Shown piece by piece: positions 34,416-45,924 of a stretch of 64,000 nt of DNA (position 1 is its first letter; each line of letters begins with the position of its first letter). The notes beneath the pieces were generated by a model. The model did no database searches. It saw only the letters and a program-made list of their open reading frames with translations, and was not told the origin of the DNA. The stretch lies in assembly GCA_024405735.1 (NCBI GenBank), contig JAKSOF010000008.1, positions 1 to 64,000 of the forward strand. The letters run 5' to 3'. This DNA comes from Victivallaceae bacterium. Its GTDB lineage: Bacteria > Verrucomicrobiota > Lentisphaeria > Victivallales > Victivallaceae. Both the position numbers and the translations under genes were made by a program.

Positions 34416-34970
34416 ATGGCCCCCGATACATTCAGCGACGCGCCGGATTGTTACGGCACTTTTGAAAAAAACAAAGCCGGTTGCAAATCGTGTGTTTATG
34501 CTTCGTCCTGTTGCTATTACCGGAAAACGGAAGCCAAAATGGAAGAAAGGCTCCATATGGTGAGATTTGAATTCGTCCAGAATTGGAGCGAATTGCTCGC
34601 CGATACGAGCCACATTCCCGGCGAGGAGGAACCGGTCGCGGCGACATCCCGCCGCCGCCGCGATCTTCCGGCGGATACGGATATTGCCGATATGGCGCAG
34701 TTTTTGCATTTCATCCTTGAACTGGATGATTATACGCTTGCGATCCTCGCGCAGATCATCGTCCCCGGAAAAGATGCCGTTCAGACGTGCTCCATGGCGG
34801 AACTCGCGAGGATCCACCATTGCACGCGGCAGGCGATCCACCGCAAGTTTTTGCGGACGGCGCACCGCAATCCGGAACTTGCCCGGTTGCTGCAGCTGAC
34901 TTTGCGCAAAGTGCGCACGAGCCGCAGCGCCTTTTTGCGCGGACACGCGGCGGCGGGGAGGCGCGCTTGA
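34416..34970 (+). CDS. phage-module protein with Cys cluster and helix-turn-helix
   Basis: 184 residues, family not recognised. An N-terminal cysteine cluster (DCYGTF, then GCKSCVYASSCCYY, five to six Cys in about 30 residues) looks like a zinc or Fe-S binding knuckle. The C-terminal third carries a helix-turn-helix candidate (SMAELARIHHCTRQAIHRKF) followed by a basic helix. This suits a DNA-binding protein acting with the terminase or regulating late genes (inference). It starts 3 bp after the connector gene and its TGA overlaps the TTG start of terL. Confidence 0.6.
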   Translation: MAPDTFSDAPDCYGTFEKNKAGCKSCVYASSCCYYRKTEAKMEERLHMVRFEFVQNWSELLADTSHIPGEEEPVAATSRRRRDLPADTDIADMAQFLHFILELDDYTLAILAQIIVPGKDAVQTCSMAELARIHHCTRQAIHRKFLRTAHRNPELARLLQLTLRKVRTSRSAFLRGHAAAGRRA

Positions 34971-36220
34971 AAGAATTCCATTATACTGCGGCGCAGCAGA
35001 AAGCGTTGAAATTGATCGCATCCGGCGCCTCGCGCGTGATGCTTTTCGGCGGCAGCCGGAGCGGTAAGACCTTTTTGCTCTGCTGTGCCTTGCTGGTGCG
35101 GGCGATGCGTGCGCCGGGGAGCCGCCACGCGATCATCCGCCGCCACTTCAACAGCGTCAAGACTTCGGTCGGGATGGACACGCTGCCTAAAGTGCTCGAC
35201 TGCCGCTTTCCCGGCGTGAAAGCCGAATTCAACAAGACGGAATGTTTTTTCCGTCTGCCCAACGGCGCGGAAATCTGGCTGATCGGGCTGGACGACGACC
35301 GCCGGGCGGAAAAGATCCTCGGCAAGGAATTTTCCACGCTCTATTTCAACGAGTGCAGTGAATTGGATTATGCGAGCGTCCAGACCGCGCTGACCCGCTT
35401 GGCGCAGAATGCGCCGCCCTTGCGCAACAAGGCGTTTTTTGACTGCAATCCGCCGGGAAAAAGTCATTGGACGTACCGGCTTTTCATTGAGAAACTCAAT
35501 CCCGTCGATCGCACCGGACTGCGCGACGGGGAAAATTTCGCCGCGATGCGGATCAATCCCGCCGACAATGCCGAAAATCTGCCGGAGGATTACATTTGTT
35601 TCACCCTCGCCAATTTGCCGGCGCGTCAGCGCGAACGGTTTCTTGAAGGACGTTTCCTCGACGAGTGTCCCGATGCATTGTGGCATTACGACGGGATCGA
35701 TGCCGCCCGCGTCGTGCGCGCTCCCGAAAATCTCGTGCGCATCGTCATCGGCGTCGATCCCGCCGTTACCGCCCGTACTTCCAGCGATGCGACCGGCATC
35801 ATCGCCGCCGCGACCGGAAGCGACGGGGATTATTATGTTTTACGCGACGCAAGCGGCGTTTATCCTCCGCTGGTCTGGGGACACCGCGTGGTCGATCTCT
35901 ACCACGAACTCGGCGCCGACCGCATCGTCGGAGAGGTCAACAACGGCGGCGACCTGATCGAAGCGATGCTCCGTCAGATCGATCCCGATTTGAGTTTCCG
36001 CTCCGTGACGGCAAGCCGCGGCAAGATCGCCCGCGCCGAACCGATCGCCGCCCTTTACGAAAAAAAGAAAGTCCATCACGTCGGCGTCTTTCCCGAACTG
36101 GAGGACGAAATGACCGGATTTTCCCCGGCGACGGCGACTTATTCCCCCGACCGGATGGACGCGCTTGTCTGGGCGCTGACGGAGCTGGGCAAAGAAGGTC
36201 CGAAATTTATTCTGGCGTAG
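34967..36220 (+). CDS. terL: phage terminase large subunit
   Basis: 417 residues. The packaging ATPase has Walker A FGGSRSGKT and a Walker B region TLYFNECSEL; the C-terminal RNase H-like nuclease begins IGVDPAVTA and ends with PDRMDALVWAL, which carries the last acidic residue. It translocates and cuts phage DNA. The frame is open from 34787, but the protein begins after a TTG at 34967, preceded by GGGGAGG at 5-nt spacing and overlapping the previous stop (TTGA), so coupling is likely. It is unusual for terL to come last, after capsid and connector genes. Confidence 0.87.
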   Translation: MKEFHYTAAQQKALKLIASGASRVMLFGGSRSGKTFLLCCALLVRAMRAPGSRHAIIRRHFNSVKTSVGMDTLPKVLDCRFPGVKAEFNKTECFFRLPNGAEIWLIGLDDDRRAEKILGKEFSTLYFNECSELDYASVQTALTRLAQNAPPLRNKAFFDCNPPGKSHWTYRLFIEKLNPVDRTGLRDGENFAAMRINPADNAENLPEDYICFTLANLPARQRERFLEGRFLDECPDALWHYDGIDAARVVRAPENLVRIVIGVDPAVTARTSSDATGIIAAATGSDGDYYVLRDASGVYPPLVWGHRVVDLYHELGADRIVGEVNNGGDLIEAMLRQIDPDLSFRSVTASRGKIARAEPIAALYEKKKVHHVGVFPELEDEMTGFSPATATYSPDRMDALVWALTELGKEGPKFILA

Positions 36221-36837: not shown

Positions 36838-37761
36838 ATGATGATCCGTTTTTTGACCGAAGCTCCTCGTGCGGATGCGCCGCTTGTGCTGGCGCTCGGG
36901 GTGTTTGACGCCGTCCACCTCGGACACAGGGAAATCATTTCCCGTGCCGCGCTGCTGGCAAAAGAGCATGACGCAAAAGTGGTGGCGGTCACCTTTTTTC
37001 CGCATCCGCGCGAAGTGCTTGCCAAAACGCCTCCGGTTTTACTGTTGCCGAAAGAAGCGAGGATCGTTCTTTTGCGGAATGCCGGAGCCGATGCGGTGGG
37101 AACGATCGACTTTTCGCGGGAATTTGCCACTTGGAGCGCGGAAAAATTCTGTCAGATGCTTTGGCGGGAATTTCCGCATCGTATCGCGGGCATCGTCGTC
37201 GGGAGCAATTGGCGTTTCGGCAAAGGCGGCGAAGGCAATGCCGCGTTTCTGCAAAAATTTTTCGCATCCTTTCATGTGGAAACGCTCGCCGTCATTGAAA
37301 AAAGTTATCAGGAAAAAATCATTTCCGCAAGCCGGATCCGCGAAGCGATTGCCGCAGGGGATTTCGATTCCGCCACCGCGATGCTCGGTCGTCCGGTCGC
37401 CCTGTACGGCATCGTCCGCCACGGTTTCGGCGATGCCGGAAAACTCCTGGCGGCGCCGACGCTCAATCTGGAGGTGGTGGCAGGGGTTTTCCCCCCCGAT
37501 GGCGTTTACGCCGGGCGCATCATGCTTCCCGACGGACGGTTTTTCCCCGCCGCCGTAAACTGCGGCATCGCGCCGACATTCGGCGACCGCACCCGCAGGA
37601 TCGAAGCGCATCTCATTGATTTTTCCGGCGATCTCTACGACAAAAAAGTAAAACTTGAATTTTGCCGTTTCATCCGTGCCGAAAAACGTTTTTCCTCGGT
37701 CGGGGAATTGAAAGCGCAGATCGCGCGCGACATCGCGTTCTGCCGGGAAGCGGCGAAATGA
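36838..37761 (+). CDS. ribF: bifunctional riboflavin kinase / FAD synthetase
   Basis: 307 residues. The FAD synthetase half has LALGVFDAVHLGHREII, VTFFPHPREVL and ISASRIREAIAAGD. The kinase half has GRPVALYGIVRHGFG, KLLAAPTLNLE (family pattern GFPTANL), VNCGIAPTFG and a helical tail. It makes FMN and then FAD in the cytoplasm. The open frame begins at 36778, but that lies inside the promoter, so the start is the ATG pair at 36838/36841. No good Shine-Dalgarno precedes it. The stop overlaps the next gene (ATGA). Confidence 0.92.
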   Translation: MMIRFLTEAPRADAPLVLALGVFDAVHLGHREIISRAALLAKEHDAKVVAVTFFPHPREVLAKTPPVLLLPKEARIVLLRNAGADAVGTIDFSREFATWSAEKFCQMLWREFPHRIAGIVVGSNWRFGKGGEGNAAFLQKFFASFHVETLAVIEKSYQEKIISASRIREAIAAGDFDSATAMLGRPVALYGIVRHGFGDAGKLLAAPTLNLEVVAGVFPPDGVYAGRIMLPDGRFFPAAVNCGIAPTFGDRTRRIEAHLIDFSGDLYDKKVKLEFCRFIRAEKRFSSVGELKAQIARDIAFCREAAK

Positions 37762-38462
37762 AAACGGTCGGCATCACGGGGATCAGCGGTTTTCTCGGGA
37801 AACATCTCGCCGCTCGCTGTGAACGGGAAAATTTTACCGTCATCGGGATCGGCCGGGACGCATTTGCCGACGAAGTCCGTCTTGCCGGACTTGTGACGCG
37901 CTGTGACGACGTCGTCCACTTCGCCGGACTGAGCCGCCACGAAAACGGGGAATATCTCTATCAGATCAATCTGTCGCTCGGGCAAAAACTTGTGCGCGCG
38001 GCGCAAAAAAATCCGGGGAAAACGCCCCGCATTATCCTCGGCTCGACGACGCATATCGACCGCGACACGCTTTATCACCGCTCCAAGCGCGACCTTGCCG
38101 CGCTTTTTGCCGCAAGCGGCAAAGAGAATGTGGAACTTCTGATGCCGAATACATTCGGTCCCGGCGGCAAAGCCTTTTACAATTCCGTTGTTTCGACCTT
38201 TTGCCGTTTGTGTTGCGATCACGCGACGCCGGAAAGGATCGACGACGTGCCGCTTGCCCTGATCTACGTCGACCGTTTGATGGATGAGATCGTCAATATC
38301 CTGCGCGAACCGGAAAAAACAGGAAAAGTCGTCATTTCCGACCAATACCATGTCCGGCTCCCCCGGGTCTGGGAGATATTGACGCATCTTGCGGACAACG
38401 CCGTACCCGCCGACGATTTTGAACGCGATCTCGCTTTGACGCTGAGATCCTACCGGCGTTAA
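37758..38462 (+). CDS. CapF-like NAD(P)-dependent sugar epimerase/reductase (short SDR)
   Basis: 234 residues. Rossmann motif ITGISGFLGKHLA, then VVHFAGLSRHENG, ILGSTTHIDRDTLYHRSKRDLAALF (trimmed DTLYHRSKRDLA, the YxxxK-like pair) and NTFGPGGKAFYNS. These are typical of the CapF/WbjC group, which reduces UDP-sugars for capsule or LPS. The protein is shorter than full CapF (about 370) and lacks its C-terminal cupin domain. It is translationally coupled to ribF by an ATGA overlap, an odd pairing. Its last bases overlap the opposite-strand D123-like gene by 4 bp. Confidence 0.75.
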   Translation: MKTVGITGISGFLGKHLAARCERENFTVIGIGRDAFADEVRLAGLVTRCDDVVHFAGLSRHENGEYLYQINLSLGQKLVRAAQKNPGKTPRIILGSTTHIDRDTLYHRSKRDLAALFAASGKENVELLMPNTFGPGGKAFYNSVVSTFCRLCCDHATPERIDDVPLALIYVDRLMDEIVNILREPEKTGKVVISDQYHVRLPRVWEILTHLADNAVPADDFERDLALTLRSYRR

Positions 38463-39187
38463 AAACTTACGTTGACGTCGCCGTTGAGTTGCACCGGGGG
38501 CGCCATCAGCAGGATGCCGAAAGTCCGGTTCCAGTCCTGATCCCACGTTTTGAGCATCAATGGATCGGTGGGCGCGCCCCACAAATTGAAGTCGATGATG
38601 AGGATCTCGTTGCCCGACGTGATGTAAATATCCATCACGATTTTCCCGTCGGGGAGTCGGTCGGCGATTTTTCCGACGAATTTTTCCGCCATCTGCCAGT
38701 ATTTGACGCGCACGCCCTCCAATCGGCGGTAATGGCGGTCAAGGTGGTACTGGCTCATTGCGTGAAGTTCCCCGTCGACGATGAAAAGACGGAATTCCCG
38801 GGGCCAGGTCATCCGGCGGAAGGGACGGATGCAGAAGTTTTTGACCAGTCCGTTCCGGGCGGCTTCGCGGACTTTTTCACTGGCAGCCAAGTTGGCAAAA
38901 GTGCTTTGCGCCGAATAGGTTGCGCCGCGTTTCCCCGCGTAACGCTCCGTATCGGTCGGGGCGCAGGTGTCGACGCAGGCGAAACAGTTGCCGGGGACTT
39001 TTTCCAACACCTTTTTCAATTCGGCGATCATTGAGTAGGAAAGCGTATTTTGCAGAATGGCTTCCATATCTCCGGTGCCGATGAGTTTGGCGAGATCGGG
39101 ATCGACGGGGACGAAGCGGGTCGGAAAGGCGTATTCGCCGAGAACCGCATACCATTCGGGCATTTGGCAGAATTTTTCAATTGTCAT
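38459..39187 (-). CDS. Cdc123/D123-family ATP-grasp protein
   Basis: 242 residues. Landmarks match the eukaryotic D123 (Cdc123) family: an N-terminal WY...FPTRFVPVD segment, then PREFRLFIVDGELHAMSQYH, MDIYITSGNEILIIDFN and FNLWGAPTDPLMLKTW (D123: EFR-F...ISQ, D-Y...LIDFNPFG..TD.LLFTW). These residues line the ATP site of an ATP-grasp fold. Eukaryotic Cdc123 is an assembly chaperone for the translation factor eIF2; the bacterial function is unknown to me. The ATG at 39187 has GGAGG upstream. It is the last gene of def - DUF1189-like - D123, a unit that begins with a translation-related enzyme. Confidence 0.78.
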   Translation of the reverse strand: MTIEKFCQMPEWYAVLGEYAFPTRFVPVDPDLAKLIGTGDMEAILQNTLSYSMIAELKKVLEKVPGNCFACVDTCAPTDTERYAGKRGATYSAQSTFANLAASEKVREAARNGLVKNFCIRPFRRMTWPREFRLFIVDGELHAMSQYHLDRHYRRLEGVRVKYWQMAEKFVGKIADRLPDGKIVMDIYITSGNEILIIDFNLWGAPTDPLMLKTWDQDWNRTFGILLMAPPVQLNGDVNVSF

Positions 39188-40085
39188 AAAAACCTCCACT
39201 GTGATCGGGGTTGTTTTCCTGTTGCCAGGTCGATTCGATGCGGCGTACGATCCATATCCAGTAGATGAACGTCGCGAAAAGATAAATCTGCGGGTAAGAG
39301 AAAACCGGCAGATCGAAAAGCGGGAAACATCCGGCGATCACCATTGCGGGAAATCCGGCGTAAAGGGCGCTTTTCCACAGATCGATCCCGCGCAGAATGC
39401 GGTTGCTGTTGATCGAAAAGATCAGCGCGGCGCTTCCCGTCGCGATGATGCCGAGGAAAAGGGCGTCGAAAAACTGTTGTAAAAAAGCGAGAAGCCAGCA
39501 GACGACGCGAATGATCCCGGCGAGGTCGGCAACGGCGATTTTCCGGTTTTCCGGAAAAACTTTTTCCGGTTGCAGTTCCGACTCCTCAAAGAGAATCTTC
39601 AGTGCGGCGCGGTCGCCGGAAATATTCGTGACCATCCGCTTTTCGCCGGGGCGGAAGATCCCCCATTGATCTTCTCCGGAGCGGACGGCGCAAAAGAATT
39701 TGCCGTTGCGCCAGAGGATGAGATAGCGGAGCCCGCCGAGATCGTTGACGACCGCTTCGCTCTGATCGGCTCCGGTGTAGCAGAGCCGTCCTTTGTAGGG
39801 CAATACGATGGATCGGGCTCTCGTTTCGTCGTGTTGCGGGTAAACGCCGTTGCCGCGAAGCACGATTTCCTGACCGAAGGCCCCGGTAAAACTGCTTTCG
39901 GAATCCTCGATCCAGCGTTGCATTCGCGTGTATTGTCCGATCGCGACCAAAACGGAAACGATCACACACAAAAGCAGAAATTGCAGAAAAACTTTCCAAA
40001 ACGGATTCCGCACCAGTCGCGGAGCATCCGCCGTCCCGCGGCAGAGTGAAAAGAAAGCGGCGAAAAATCCCGGCGTTTCCGTCAT
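39177..40085 (-). CDS. DUF1189-like integral membrane protein
   Basis: 302 residues. An N-terminal amphipathic element (FFAAFFSLCRG) is followed by a membrane segment (FWKVFLQFLLLCVIVSVLVA, about 29-48), an outward soluble domain of about 140 residues, and three or four C-terminal membrane segments. This pattern, including the aromatic start, matches DUF1189 proteins, whose function is unknown. The ATG at 40085 overlaps the def stop (ATGA), so residues in the longer open frame upstream are not used. Its end overlaps the D123-like gene by 11 bp. Confidence 0.7.
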   Translation of the reverse strand: MTETPGFFAAFFSLCRGTADAPRLVRNPFWKVFLQFLLLCVIVSVLVAIGQYTRMQRWIEDSESSFTGAFGQEIVLRGNGVYPQHDETRARSIVLPYKGRLCYTGADQSEAVVNDLGGLRYLILWRNGKFFCAVRSGEDQWGIFRPGEKRMVTNISGDRAALKILFEESELQPEKVFPENRKIAVADLAGIIRVVCWLLAFLQQFFDALFLGIIATGSAALIFSINSNRILRGIDLWKSALYAGFPAMVIAGCFPLFDLPVFSYPQIYLFATFIYWIWIVRRIESTWQQENNPDHSGGFYDN

Positions 40086-40669
40086 TTCTTCTTGGTCCTC
40101 AAGTAGTTGACGCGTTTGCCGCGTTCGCGGAGCTGTTGCAGTTCCGGAGCGATGCGCTCCGCTTCTTTGGGCGCGAGACGGTCGGTGAAAACGATGCCGT
40201 GCAAGTGGTCGATCTCGTGCTGAAGACAACGCGCAAGCAAGTGATCGCACTCGATCTCGATCTCCTGATTGGCGAGCGAGGTAAAGTGGACGACGACCCG
40301 TTCGGGGCGGACGACTTCGGCATAAATGCCCGGCACCGACAGACATCCTTCCTCTTTGCCGACCATTTTTCCCGCGCTGGAAACGATGCGCGGATTGACG
40401 AGCGCAAGCGGCATCTGATGCAGCAGCAATTTTTCCCCGGGGGAAAGCGCGACATCCTTTTCCGGCGGCGGGACATCGACGACGACCAGTTGCCTGGCAA
40501 TGCCGATCTGCGGCGCGGCAAGCCCGATGCCGTCAAAGAAATACATCGATTCGACCATATTCCGGGCGAGATCGACGATTTCCGGCGTAATGGCTAAAAC
40601 CGGCTCCGCTTCCTGCGCGAGCACCGGATCGCCGCTGGTGCGGACGGGGTATTTCACTTTGCTTTTCAC
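40082..40669 (-). CDS. def: peptide deformylase
   Basis: 195 residues. The three deformylase motifs are intact: GIGLAAPQIG, EEGCLSVPG and CLQHEIDHLHG, giving the Cys and two His metal ligands and the catalytic Glu. It removes the formyl group from new proteins. The start is GTG at 40669 with a weak Shine-Dalgarno. The tolC terminator lies about 15-45 bp upstream, so its promoter must overlap that region or def depends on read-through. Confidence 0.93.
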   Translation of the reverse strand: MKSKVKYPVRTSGDPVLAQEAEPVLAITPEIVDLARNMVESMYFFDGIGLAAPQIGIARQLVVVDVPPPEKDVALSPGEKLLLHQMPLALVNPRIVSSAGKMVGKEEGCLSVPGIYAEVVRPERVVVHFTSLANQEIEIECDHLLARCLQHEIDHLHGIVFTDRLAPKEAERIAPELQQLRERGKRVNYLRTKKK

Positions 40670-40729: not shown

Positions 40730-42415
40730 TTATCTTTGCTCCGTCGCCGAGGCGGGAATTGCGACCGGCTGGACTTTTTGCGGCTCCGCCTGCGGCGCGG
40801 GCGCCGGAGCGTCATCCGTTTTCACGGCTTCGGGAGCGGATTTTTCCGTCGAAGAGATCCCGGAGGGCAACGCCGATTCCTTTTGCGGTACGACCGGTGC
40901 CGTTTCCTTGGAGTCGGAAAATTGTTCCGGCGGCAGGCTTTCCATGCCGGGAGCGAGTTTTGCGTCGATCTTTTCCGGCTGATTTTCGTAGTAGCTTGCG
41001 TTGTTGACGCCGACCGCCGCGTCCAGTTGCGCGCGGGCGTTCTGGATGCCGATGTAACTGGTGGCGAGATTCGCCTCGGCGTCGACGAAGTCGCGCTGAG
41101 CTTCGTTGAGACGGGTCAATTCAGTATTTCCGGCGCGGTATTCGTCATCGACGAGATCGCGCTGTTTGGCGGAAAGGTCGCGGACCTGCTGCAGAAGTTT
41201 CGTCGCGCGGGTACACTGGACGTAGGACGCGTAAGCGGTGCGGACATCGTTGACCACCTGGAACCACTGTGCCGCCGCCTGATAGTCGGCGATGGCGAGA
41301 TTCGCCTGATACTCGCGCATCTTGTTGTAACGCGCCAGACCGCTGAAGATCGTCCAGTCCGCCTGGATCCCGTAGCTGATCGAAGTATTGTCGCTGCGGG
41401 AACGGGTGTCGTAATCATTTGTGTAAGAGGCATTGGTGCCGAATCCCCAGTTGAAAAAGGCGTTGACCGTCGGCGAAAACGAGGCGTACTGCTGATAGAG
41501 CTGATATTTGGCGATCTCAAGCTGTTCGCGGTAGCCTTTGAGGTCTGGGCGGTTCGCCAATGCCGTGTCGAGGTAGACGTCAACGGCGGGCAGTTCGACG
41601 AAATCGGTTTTGATGTGGCCGGAAAATTTCACTTCCTTGGGGAAAGTCCCGTCGGGATAGCCCATCAGAAGCGCGAGCGCGTAGAGCGCGCTCTCGTAGT
41701 TGTACTCCGCTTTGACGACGTTGACTTCGGCGTTGTTCATCAATATGGCGAAGTTCAGCACACTGCTCAGCGGCACCGCGCCCGCGTCGAATTTGTATTG
41801 CGTGTCGCGCAACGAAGTCATCTGGAATTTGCGGTCTTCTTCGGCGATGCGGCGGTTTTCGATCTGGAGCAGAACGCTGTTGTACGCCTGTGCCACGGCG
41901 AGCATCATCGTGCGGCAGGCGTTTTCGTCGAGCCGCTGATAGTATTTTTCCGAATGGCTTGCCGCCATCACGCCGAATTCGCGGTTCAGACCGTCGAAAA
42001 GCAGCATCGTCGCCTGAACTCCGACGTTGGTGTTGAGACTGTCGGTGCGCGGATGACGTACCGGCGAACCGAAATCGTTTGAGTTGGTGCCGACCTTGGT
42101 ATTCCATGAATCACTGCCGGTCAGCGAGAAACTCGCGGTGATCCGGGGCATGTATCCGGCGAAACTCTGTAAATAGCGCATATGCGCCGCCGCGACGGAG
42201 TGGTGCGCCGCGATGTAAGTCGGGTTGTTGTGCAATGCGATGCGCTGGGCGTCCGCAAGCGACAAACTGGTGATGTCCTTGAACATCTCGTCCGCCTCGT
42301 CGCGCTGACGCTGCGAATAAGTCTCTCCGAGCGTGGAAACCGGCGGCGGCGGATAATCATAGCACCCGCCGAGCATTGCCGCGGCGATCAGAGCGAAAAA
42401 AGAATGTTTTTTCAT
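40730..42415 (-). CDS. TolC-family outer membrane efflux lipoprotein
   Basis: 561 residues. A lipoprotein signal (MLGGC, Cys at about 18) means acylation of the mature N terminus. The body is a TolC/NodT-type repeat of long amphipathic helices and beta strands (SLSLADAQRIALHNNP opening, TELTRLNEAQRDFVDAEANLA second repeat). The last 75 residues are a Pro/Ala/Glu/Lys-rich, probably unstructured tail not usual in TolC. It forms the outer-membrane duct for a periplasmic adaptor such as the HlyD-like protein at 3766-4743. No pump gene adjoins it, so it may serve several exporters. It has its own promoter and terminator. Confidence 0.88.
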   Translation of the reverse strand: MKKHSFFALIAAAMLGGCYDYPPPPVSTLGETYSQRQRDEADEMFKDITSLSLADAQRIALHNNPTYIAAHHSVAAAHMRYLQSFAGYMPRITASFSLTGSDSWNTKVGTNSNDFGSPVRHPRTDSLNTNVGVQATMLLFDGLNREFGVMAASHSEKYYQRLDENACRTMMLAVAQAYNSVLLQIENRRIAEEDRKFQMTSLRDTQYKFDAGAVPLSSVLNFAILMNNAEVNVVKAEYNYESALYALALLMGYPDGTFPKEVKFSGHIKTDFVELPAVDVYLDTALANRPDLKGYREQLEIAKYQLYQQYASFSPTVNAFFNWGFGTNASYTNDYDTRSRSDNTSISYGIQADWTIFSGLARYNKMREYQANLAIADYQAAAQWFQVVNDVRTAYASYVQCTRATKLLQQVRDLSAKQRDLVDDEYRAGNTELTRLNEAQRDFVDAEANLATSYIGIQNARAQLDAAVGVNNASYYENQPEKIDAKLAPGMESLPPEQFSDSKETAPVVPQKESALPSGISSTEKSAPEAVKTDDAPAPAPQAEPQKVQPVAIPASATEQR

Positions 42416-43788: not shown

Positions 43789-45924
43789 TTACGGTTTCGC
43801 GTCGGGGAGACGTTCGAGGTCGATGACTTCGGCGTAAAGCCACTTCATCTTGCGCACCGGAAAAAAGAGGAAAAGTTTTTTTCTGCCGCGGACCGTGCCG
43901 GTCGTGTCGCCGAAACCTTTTTTCATCGCCGCAAGATAGAGCGCGCGGTATTCGGTTGACTTGACGTTGATCAGGGGATCGGCGTCCAATTCCCGGATGG
44001 GATTCCCGTCGCGGTCGGCGGAAACCAGGATATTGCCGTCGGCATCAAGAAGAAGTCGCGCCTCGACCGACGTCGCGTCGGCGCCGTACTGCGCCATGAT
44101 CTCGCGGAAACGCTCGAGGACGACGTCGAGCGCGCAGACGCCGAGCAGACGCTCTCCTTTACGGCACGCCTGCGTACAAGTCATCATCCGCTTTTTGACT
44201 TGCAATCCGAGGTAGGGTTTTCCCCAATGGAGCTGATCGTCGGCAAAGGCTTTGCCCGCGATGAACCAGTTGCGGTCGCGCGGATCGTAGTCTCCGGGCA
44301 ATGCGTCGCTTCCCGGATATTGGAGCAGAAATCCCGCTTCCGAGGCGATGTAGAACCAGAGCATCATATTGCCGTCGCGGAGCATTTCCTCCTTGAGGAG
44401 CGGCAGACTTTTCTTTTCATCGGGGCGCGTGGAGCCGGTTTCGAGGAAACGCGGCACGATTTTTTCCATTGCCGGAGCAAGTTGGGCGATCTCTTTTTTG
44501 GCGCGCTTTTCATCGACGTTTTTCGCCGCCATACGCAACGCGGCGCGGTCGATTTGGAGCCAATGCCCGTAATAGGATGAAAAATGAACGCCCGGATCGC
44601 GATGCGCGGCTTCGTCTGAAATAAATTCGGCGGGCTTCGGCGCATCGGCGGGGGGCGGAAAATCCATTCTCGCCGCCGCTTCGGCGGAAAATTCCCGCAT
44701 CAAAGATTCCAGAGCGCCGAATTTCTTTTCGATCTGATAGGCGGCTCTTGCGGTCTTTGCCGAAAGTTGTGTCAGCGCATTTTCGTATTGACGCCGGGCG
44801 ATCTCGTCGTTGCGCTGACGGTAGAAATTCCACGCCGCATTGCCGAGAAAGGCGAATAAGATCAGCGCGACGACCGCCGCCGTGATATTGTGATGTTTTA
44901 TCATTGCGCGGCTGATTTTGCCGAAAAAGCGGTCGGGGAGGGCTGTGGTTTCCTCTCCGGCGAGGAATTTGCGCAGATCGCCGCTCAATTCCCCGACCGT
45001 CTGATAACGTTCCGTTTTGTCAAACGCCATCGCCTTTTTGACGATCGCGGCAAGTTCGCGGGAAACGCCGATGCCGAAAGCGTGACAAAAAGAATTGCTC
45101 CGGCAATTGGCGACTTGAGAGATCAATTCCTCCGGGGTCGTGCCGGAAAAAGCGGATTTGAGAAAGACGATGTCAAATAAAATCACGCCGAGGGCAAAAA
45201 TATCCGCACGCTGATCGCTTGCTTCTTTTGCCAGGACTTCCGGCGCCATATAAGGGGGCGTTCCCAATGTGTTGGGCGGTGCGCCGGGATCGGTGCCGCG
45301 GATCGGTGCGGCGATGCCCCAGTCGATCAGGTAGACTTCGCGGTATTCCCCGATGATGATGTTGCCGGGTTTGAGGTCGCGGTGCATCAGATTGCGGTGA
45401 TGGACGTAACTCAAGGCATCGCAGACGCGCAAAAAGAGTTCGAGCCGGTCGCGGAGCGCCGAATTTTCATCGTATTTCGCGATGCCGTTTTCGCGGTAGC
45501 GGCGGCAGGTTTCGTCGAGGTGGTCGGAGAGCGTCACGCCCCGGAGTATTTTCATTGCAAGGTGAAGCCCGTTTTTTTCATCGCCCGTCAGGGAATAGAT
45601 CGGGACGATCGCGGGGTGCTCCAGTTGCGCGGTGATTTTCGCTTCCGCGAGAAAACTTTTCCGCGCCCGTTCGTCGCCGAGCAATTCGGCGCGGAGCGAC
45701 TTGACGGCGACGACGCGGTCAAGTGATTTGTCCTTGGCGCGAAAGACGATGCCCTGTCCGCCCTCGCCCAGAATGTCCCCGTTTTCATAGAGCAACTCTT
45801 TATCAGGCAGTTGCGGATGCAGTTCCGCCGTGTCCAAGCGGATGTCGCCGGGCAAAAAATCCTTTTTTTTCTCCGGGCGGGATATTTTTTGCGTCTTGTC
45901 GGAAAAATTTTCGGACATCATCAT
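43789..45924 (-). CDS. Ser/Thr protein kinase with transmembrane segment and Cache-like sensor
   Basis: 711 residues. The cytoplasmic N-terminal kinase domain (about 50-320) has GEGGQGIVFRA, the VAVKSL lysine, HRDLKPGNIII, IDWGIA (DWG for DFG) and YMAPEVLAKE. A single membrane helix follows (about 346-368, AAVVALILFAFLGNAAW). The remaining roughly 340 residues lie outside the membrane and look like a double-Cache sensor: a long helix, then GHWLQIDRAALR, WFYIASEAGFLLQYPGSD, DYDPRDRNWFIAGKA and LLDADGNILVSA. A Cache ligand domain is usual on chemoreceptors and histidine kinases and rare on Hanks-type kinases. The start has three consecutive ATGs; GAGG fits the second best. Divergent from the secreted protein gene at 46072. 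Confidence 0.85.
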   Translation of the reverse strand: MMMSENFSDKTQKISRPEKKKDFLPGDIRLDTAELHPQLPDKELLYENGDILGEGGQGIVFRAKDKSLDRVVAVKSLRAELLGDERARKSFLAEAKITAQLEHPAIVPIYSLTGDEKNGLHLAMKILRGVTLSDHLDETCRRYRENGIAKYDENSALRDRLELFLRVCDALSYVHHRNLMHRDLKPGNIIIGEYREVYLIDWGIAAPIRGTDPGAPPNTLGTPPYMAPEVLAKEASDQRADIFALGVILFDIVFLKSAFSGTTPEELISQVANCRSNSFCHAFGIGVSRELAAIVKKAMAFDKTERYQTVGELSGDLRKFLAGEETTALPDRFFGKISRAMIKHHNITAAVVALILFAFLGNAAWNFYRQRNDEIARRQYENALTQLSAKTARAAYQIEKKFGALESLMREFSAEAAARMDFPPPADAPKPAEFISDEAAHRDPGVHFSSYYGHWLQIDRAALRMAAKNVDEKRAKKEIAQLAPAMEKIVPRFLETGSTRPDEKKSLPLLKEEMLRDGNMMLWFYIASEAGFLLQYPGSDALPGDYDPRDRNWFIAGKAFADDQLHWGKPYLGLQVKKRMMTCTQACRKGERLLGVCALDVVLERFREIMAQYGADATSVEARLLLDADGNILVSADRDGNPIRELDADPLINVKSTEYRALYLAAMKKGFGDTTGTVRGRKKLFLFFPVRKMKWLYAEVIDLERLPDAKP

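Follow-up and report, generated by a model that had tools for sequence, protein, structure and literature searches.

A D123/Cdc123-family ATP-grasp protein of the Lentisphaeria encoded in a peptide deformylase operon

Human CDC123 is an assembly chaperone of eIF2 (PMC12860950, PMC8844851). Up to 2022 eukaryotic Cdc123 had no identified enzymatic activity (PMC8844851); later work reports ATP hydrolysis by the human protein and puts R111 close to the ATP (PMC12860950). Bacterial CDC123 proteins, including a member from Lentisphaera araneosa, were reported by Burroughs et al. in 2015. These authors listed the lentisphaerae, defined the R2K clade by a RAGNYA unit with two lysines, predicted peptide-ligase chemistry and suggested that the proteins act in T6SS toxin loci or are effectors (PMC4431377). 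Therefore, the bacterial family is not new, and a preliminary description of the locus studied here, which regarded the bacterial role as undescribed, does not hold in this respect. To our knowledge, bacteria possess no eIF2.

The D123 gene analyzed here lies in a window of 64,000 nucleotides from a Victivallaceae bacterium (Table 1). Its product belongs to the same family as the R2K.1 proteins of 2015 (PMC4431377). Those were read as T6SS-linked or effector-like, whereas the window gene is housekeeping-like and its relatives are linked to def or to map and ffh, independently of T6SS. Not covered by that publication are the housekeeping distribution, the gene order with def, a missing pair of basic residues and a conserved C-terminal peptide. 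A published account of a def-linked bacterial D123 protein was not found in the open-licence literature searched.

Table 1. Positions of the D123 gene, its protein regions and other genes in the window.
Feature	Position	Strand	Evidence
Phage terminase large subunit	34787-36220	+	Pfam, E = 5e-15
Epimerase-like gene	37752-38462	+	
D123/Cdc123-family ATP-grasp protein, 242 aa	38459-39187	-	Pfam, profile, AF2, fold match
Conserved C-terminal tail, residues 231-242, ending GDVNVSF-COOH	38462-38497	-	alignment, model
Kinase-like half with Mg-ATP residues E131-x-R133, D186, D199-x-N201; residues 129-203	38579-38803	-	
RAGNYA strand-2/loop region, residues 70-86, ACVDTCAPTDTERYAGK	38930-38980	-	alignment of 54 relatives
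DUF1189-like membrane protein, 302 aa	39177-40085	-	Pfam DUF1189, E = 8.8e-6, below cut-off
Peptide deformylase (def)	40082-40669	-	Pfam, E = 7.8e-48
Outer-membrane efflux (TolC-like) protein, upstream of def	40730-42415	-	Pfam OEP, E = 9.4e-53
Ser/Thr protein kinase with Cache-like sensor region	43789-45924	-	

Family membership and predicted fold

The D123 reading frame starts with an ATG at 39187 and ends with a stop codon at 38459-38461. Its product matched the Pfam family D123 (PF07065) with 61.8 bits (cut-off 24) and an E-value of 7.8e-17, and the D123 profile was matched by all 54 relatives. For the window protein D123 was the best-scoring profile, ahead of R2K.2 (PF18299) and R2K.3 (PF14243), which matched the kinase-like half more weakly (29 and 16 of the 54 members, respectively). 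The single window protein already found human CDC123 (8phd) by phmmer with an E-value of 3e-5. With the profile of the 54 relatives this value improved to 1.3e-20, covering profile positions 7-215 of 238, and S. pombe Cdc123 was matched at about 1e-12.

The AlphaFold (AF2) model of the protein had a mean pLDDT of 96.2. The ten PDB folds nearest to it were all Cdc123 (E-values of 1e-12 to 1e-13), and the next fold followed at 1.7e-5. Eukaryotic Cdc123 (human 8phd/8phv; S. pombe 4zgn, 4zgo, 4zgp, 4zgq) is homologous over nearly the full length and has the same fold, with TM-scores of 0.72-0.80 on the query. Beyond Cdc123 the model next resembled Ddl, LysX, RimK and PurK, which have the general ATP-grasp fold in common with it but match far more weakly (E about 1e-4 to 1e-5, TM 0.3-0.5). 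These enzymes carry classical phosphate-binding lysines, which are absent from the window protein. Giant-virus Cdc123 proteins also matched the model by fold; these are the known NCLDV homologues. Thus, by sequence, profile and predicted fold the window protein is a true D123/Cdc123-family member by descent, on evidence well beyond chance, in agreement with the ATP-grasp assignment of the preliminary description.

Active site and C-terminal tail

The 356-residue PDB chain of human CDC123 seems to have 20 extra N-terminal residues, and with this inferred offset the aligned residues match the published K104, A109, R111, D233 and D246-x-N248. The metal- and ATP-binding residues of the human protein have nearly invariant counterparts in the bacterial proteins: ExR corresponds to E131-x-R133, D233 to D186 and D246-x-N248 to D199-x-N201. 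E131, R133 and D186 occur in 54/54 relatives, D199 and N201 in 53/54. The window protein does not contain the ExGD motif of R2K.3 and has DxN there instead. Also aligned is the SQ pair (S145/Q146), of which Q146 is invariant. The D123 landmarks named in the preliminary description, among them EFR (E131-R133), thus align with human residues; what it left out is that a K/R pair is missing from the N-terminal half.

This pair lies in the RAGNYA strand-2/loop region. Human K104 corresponds to C71 of the window protein, a position which varies among the relatives (S, F, G, C, H and others), and human R111 corresponds to T78, which is T in 51 of 54; lysine or arginine occurs at neither position in any of them. 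The strand-2 lysine of the R2K clade is thus not found in these proteins. D73, P77 and D79 are invariant, and the window protein keeps the equivalents of human A109, P110 and D112. The loop of residues 80-90 contains K or R in every one of the 54 relatives, most commonly R82 and K86, and these residues may have taken over from the lost cations, as we infer from the alignment. Loss of both R2K basic positions is probably specific to the class Lentisphaeria, because an Aneurinibacillus homologue keeps R and K there. Ligase activity should not be assumed since both positions are missing, and catalysis may be weak or lost because they serve other R2K members. The lineage shows that long-term retention of a D123 protein does not need the two R2K basic positions.

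Alignment with the human protein stops at residue 285 of 356, and the window protein is shorter and ends in a tail without counterpart in the human chain. The terminus reads G-x-[VI]-x-VSF-COOH in 50 of 54 relatives; of the exceptions, three members of family f8 end earlier and one protein ends in VSP. The last 12 residues are the least confident part of the model (pLDDT about 72-82). The simplest reading of the conserved terminus is that of a putative partner-docking peptide. A pattern search of this genome found no other protein ending in GDVxVSF, so that a tag shared by several proteins was rejected. At the three f8 loci (L064, L065, L112) the def operon is retained together with a D123 gene lacking the VSF tail.

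Gene order and distribution

The D123 gene is the third in an overlapping set of genes in the order def, DUF1189-like and D123, since one gene separates it from def. The ATG of the DUF1189-like gene overlaps the stop codon of def (ATGA), and its own stop falls 11 nt inside the D123 start. The def operon of the preliminary description was thus found, with one gene in between. At the other end the stop codons of D123 and the convergent epimerase-like gene overlap by 4 nt. The deformylase is the sole one found in this genome (a single match), and the idea of a specialized second def was rejected for this reason. At one locus (L043, genome G029) another deformylase-like reading frame lies on the far side of D123, at a distance of about 3 kb; it was seen in this one genome only. 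The DUF1189-like protein has predicted transmembrane segments around a beta-rich domain (AF2 pLDDT 89.5), and its model matched no PDB fold below E = 0.001. Its gene adjoins def throughout the class, including genomes without D123, and relatives often have the TolC-like gene there as well.

Within the order the arrangement is strongly conserved. The three genes follow each other on one strand in 41 of 44 loci; the exceptions are a contig end (L040), a D123 gene beside other genes (L045) and a locus from which def is gone (L059). The gap between the DUF1189-like gene and D123 is -20 to +30 nt in 37 of 43 cases, and the coupling is retained in six families of the order. The survey of neighbours which had been proposed with the preliminary description therefore did not reveal a loss of the def linkage in relatives. 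The def-DUF1189 pair is likewise found in further families of the class, where D123 is missing or lies elsewhere, and for this reason D123 looks like a later arrival beside this pair. The def linkage of D123 is a derived, order-level arrangement.

Outside the order the contexts differ. In family f11 (5 genomes, 3 genera) the operon consists of type I methionyl aminopeptidase (map), ffh and D123, and among the ffh loci examined map adjoins ffh solely at these D123 loci. D123 is thus tied to N-terminal processing genes a second time and independently. Two such links are unlikely to arise by chance (a rough post hoc estimate gave ~1e-4), although housekeeping genes do cluster. In four of the five f11 loci (L099, L100, L101, L102, L097) an acyl-CoA synthetase-like gene and pdxJ follow D123. 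Families f12 and f13 have an AMP-binding (acyl-CoA synthetase-like) gene and/or DAHP synthase after D123. In f15 an ABC ATPase and a lipoprotein precede it, and in f9 it is outside any operon. Where D123 stands alone in these other families, it is near lpxK. Because of these unrelated neighbours the context of D123 is not uniformly translational.

D123 is present in 35 of 40 close relatives, with one copy per genome. In a sample of 289 genomes of the phylum it was found in 72, namely in 61/67 genomes of the same order (counting those of at least 90% completeness) and in 11 from other families of the class; none was seen outside the Lentisphaeria in this sample, and the 197 genomes not listed individually gave no match. 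Among the class members listed, those without a match belong mainly to family f10. Six genomes of the order have no D123 match. Three of them (G288, G157, G173) also lack the DUF1189-like gene, so that the locus may be missing from these assemblies; the other three (G039, G203, G209), all of genus g17, have lost D123 alone and kept def-DUF1189. From a relative in UBA1791 with 83% identity the genome was judged to be that of a Lentisphaeria bacterium. A contig scan with the single protein gave only one near relative, and the distribution rests on whole-genome searches.

Mean identity across the loci was 49% for D123, 47% for def and 23% for the DUF1189-like protein. Pairwise distances of D123 track those of def (41 loci, Mantel r = 0.75, 0/2000 permutations), which is what vertical inheritance gives and by itself no proof of interaction. 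A plasmid search returned one Aneurinibacillus and one Sinorhizobium match, and no relatives were found in the phage records and viral contigs searched. D123 is here a vertically inherited, single-copy, housekeeping-like gene characteristic of the class Lentisphaeria.

Proposed function and other genes of the window

Most likely, the window protein is an ATP-dependent factor acting on a protein client, and a link to translation is suggestive. The link to translation drawn in the preliminary description gained from the conserved order with def and from the independent map-ffh-D123 operon of f11; it lost ground because the def linkage is derived and D123 alone was lost in g17. Our best guess is an ATP-dependent protein that either chaperones or modifies a client among nascent chains or in translation. 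Mg-ATP would be bound via the intact kinase-like half, with basic residues of the loop after strand 2 standing in for the missing lysines. The tail would dock the protein on a partner, and ATP might be used to assemble, remodel or modify the client in the translation and nascent-chain processing setting of def, map and ffh. Taken as a whole, a housekeeping ATP-using factor that docks via its tail and acts on such a client has a probability of roughly 0.4. Against this reading, def functions without D123 in many relatives (the f10 genomes and genus g17), and D123 has neighbours unrelated to translation in other families.

Alternatively, the protein might be an active ATP-grasp ligase. It would then attach a short peptide or a single amino acid to some housekeeping protein, for example one of the ribosome or of translation, and lysines at shifted loop positions would do the work of those that were lost. 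The ExR motif is typical of peptide-bond-forming ATP-grasp enzymes, and it is retained in nearly all members together with D186 and D199-x-N201. The basic residues of the 80-90 loop and the next-best fold resemblance to Ddl, LysX, RimK and PurK fit as well. Nevertheless, we consider such a ligase rather unlikely: all 54 proteins lack both the strand-2 lysine and the second cation, the activity reported for Cdc123 since 2022 is ATP hydrolysis (PMC12860950), and no gene supplying a substrate is conserved across the contexts. Comparing the two chemistries, we lean slightly towards a chaperone/ATPase mode, like that reported for eukaryotic CDC123 on eIF2, over amide-bond ligation. The class-wide loss of both phosphate-contacting basic positions and a tail that is conserved yet of lower model confidence would also suit a pseudoenzyme or ATP-sensing scaffold which binds ATP without catalysis, docks by its tail and acts as a partner or stability subunit. 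The near-invariance of the metal-binding and ExR residues would be unexpected in such a protein, which makes this improbable.

It is also quite unlikely that D123 rides along in the def operon as a passenger whose own role is in unrelated metabolism, in which case the linkage would reflect shared housekeeping expression only. The class-wide def-DUF1189 pairs without D123 and the other neighbours of D123 in other families speak for a passenger; the tight coupling in six families of the order and the independent link to map and ffh speak against it. A conflict-system protein, either a toxin or accessory protein delivered by T6SS or an effector, would agree with the loci assigned to other bacterial CDC123 proteins (PMC4431377). 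In the window, however, the neighbours are def and the DUF1189-like gene, and the gene is near-universal in the order, single-copy and co-inherited with def. The T6SS marker VipA is absent from this genome and from 37 of 40 relatives (present in 3), a search of the PADLOC defence library gave no match, and phage and viral relatives were lacking as described above. Consequently, a T6SS role does not fit this lineage; this origin is largely refuted and has hardly any probability left.

More specifically, D123 could take part in co-translational N-terminal processing as an ATP-dependent factor peculiar to the class. At the ribosome it would work together with Def, Map or SRP by means of a re-arranged R2K site and a docking peptide. 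It would then be a possible bacterial counterpart of the eukaryotic translation-factor assembly chaperone; in this full form the proposal is unlikely. The published view links bacterial CDC123 to toxins and effectors, whereas the Lentisphaeria show housekeeping behaviour. A housekeeping lineage that is twice independently coupled to N-terminal processing or targeting genes offers a setting in which the ancestral activity could be measured.

Further along the window there is a gene for a Ser/Thr protein kinase with a Cache-like sensor region (Table 1). The phage terminase large subunit gene lies near coaD and is likely the edge of a prophage or of a prophage remnant.
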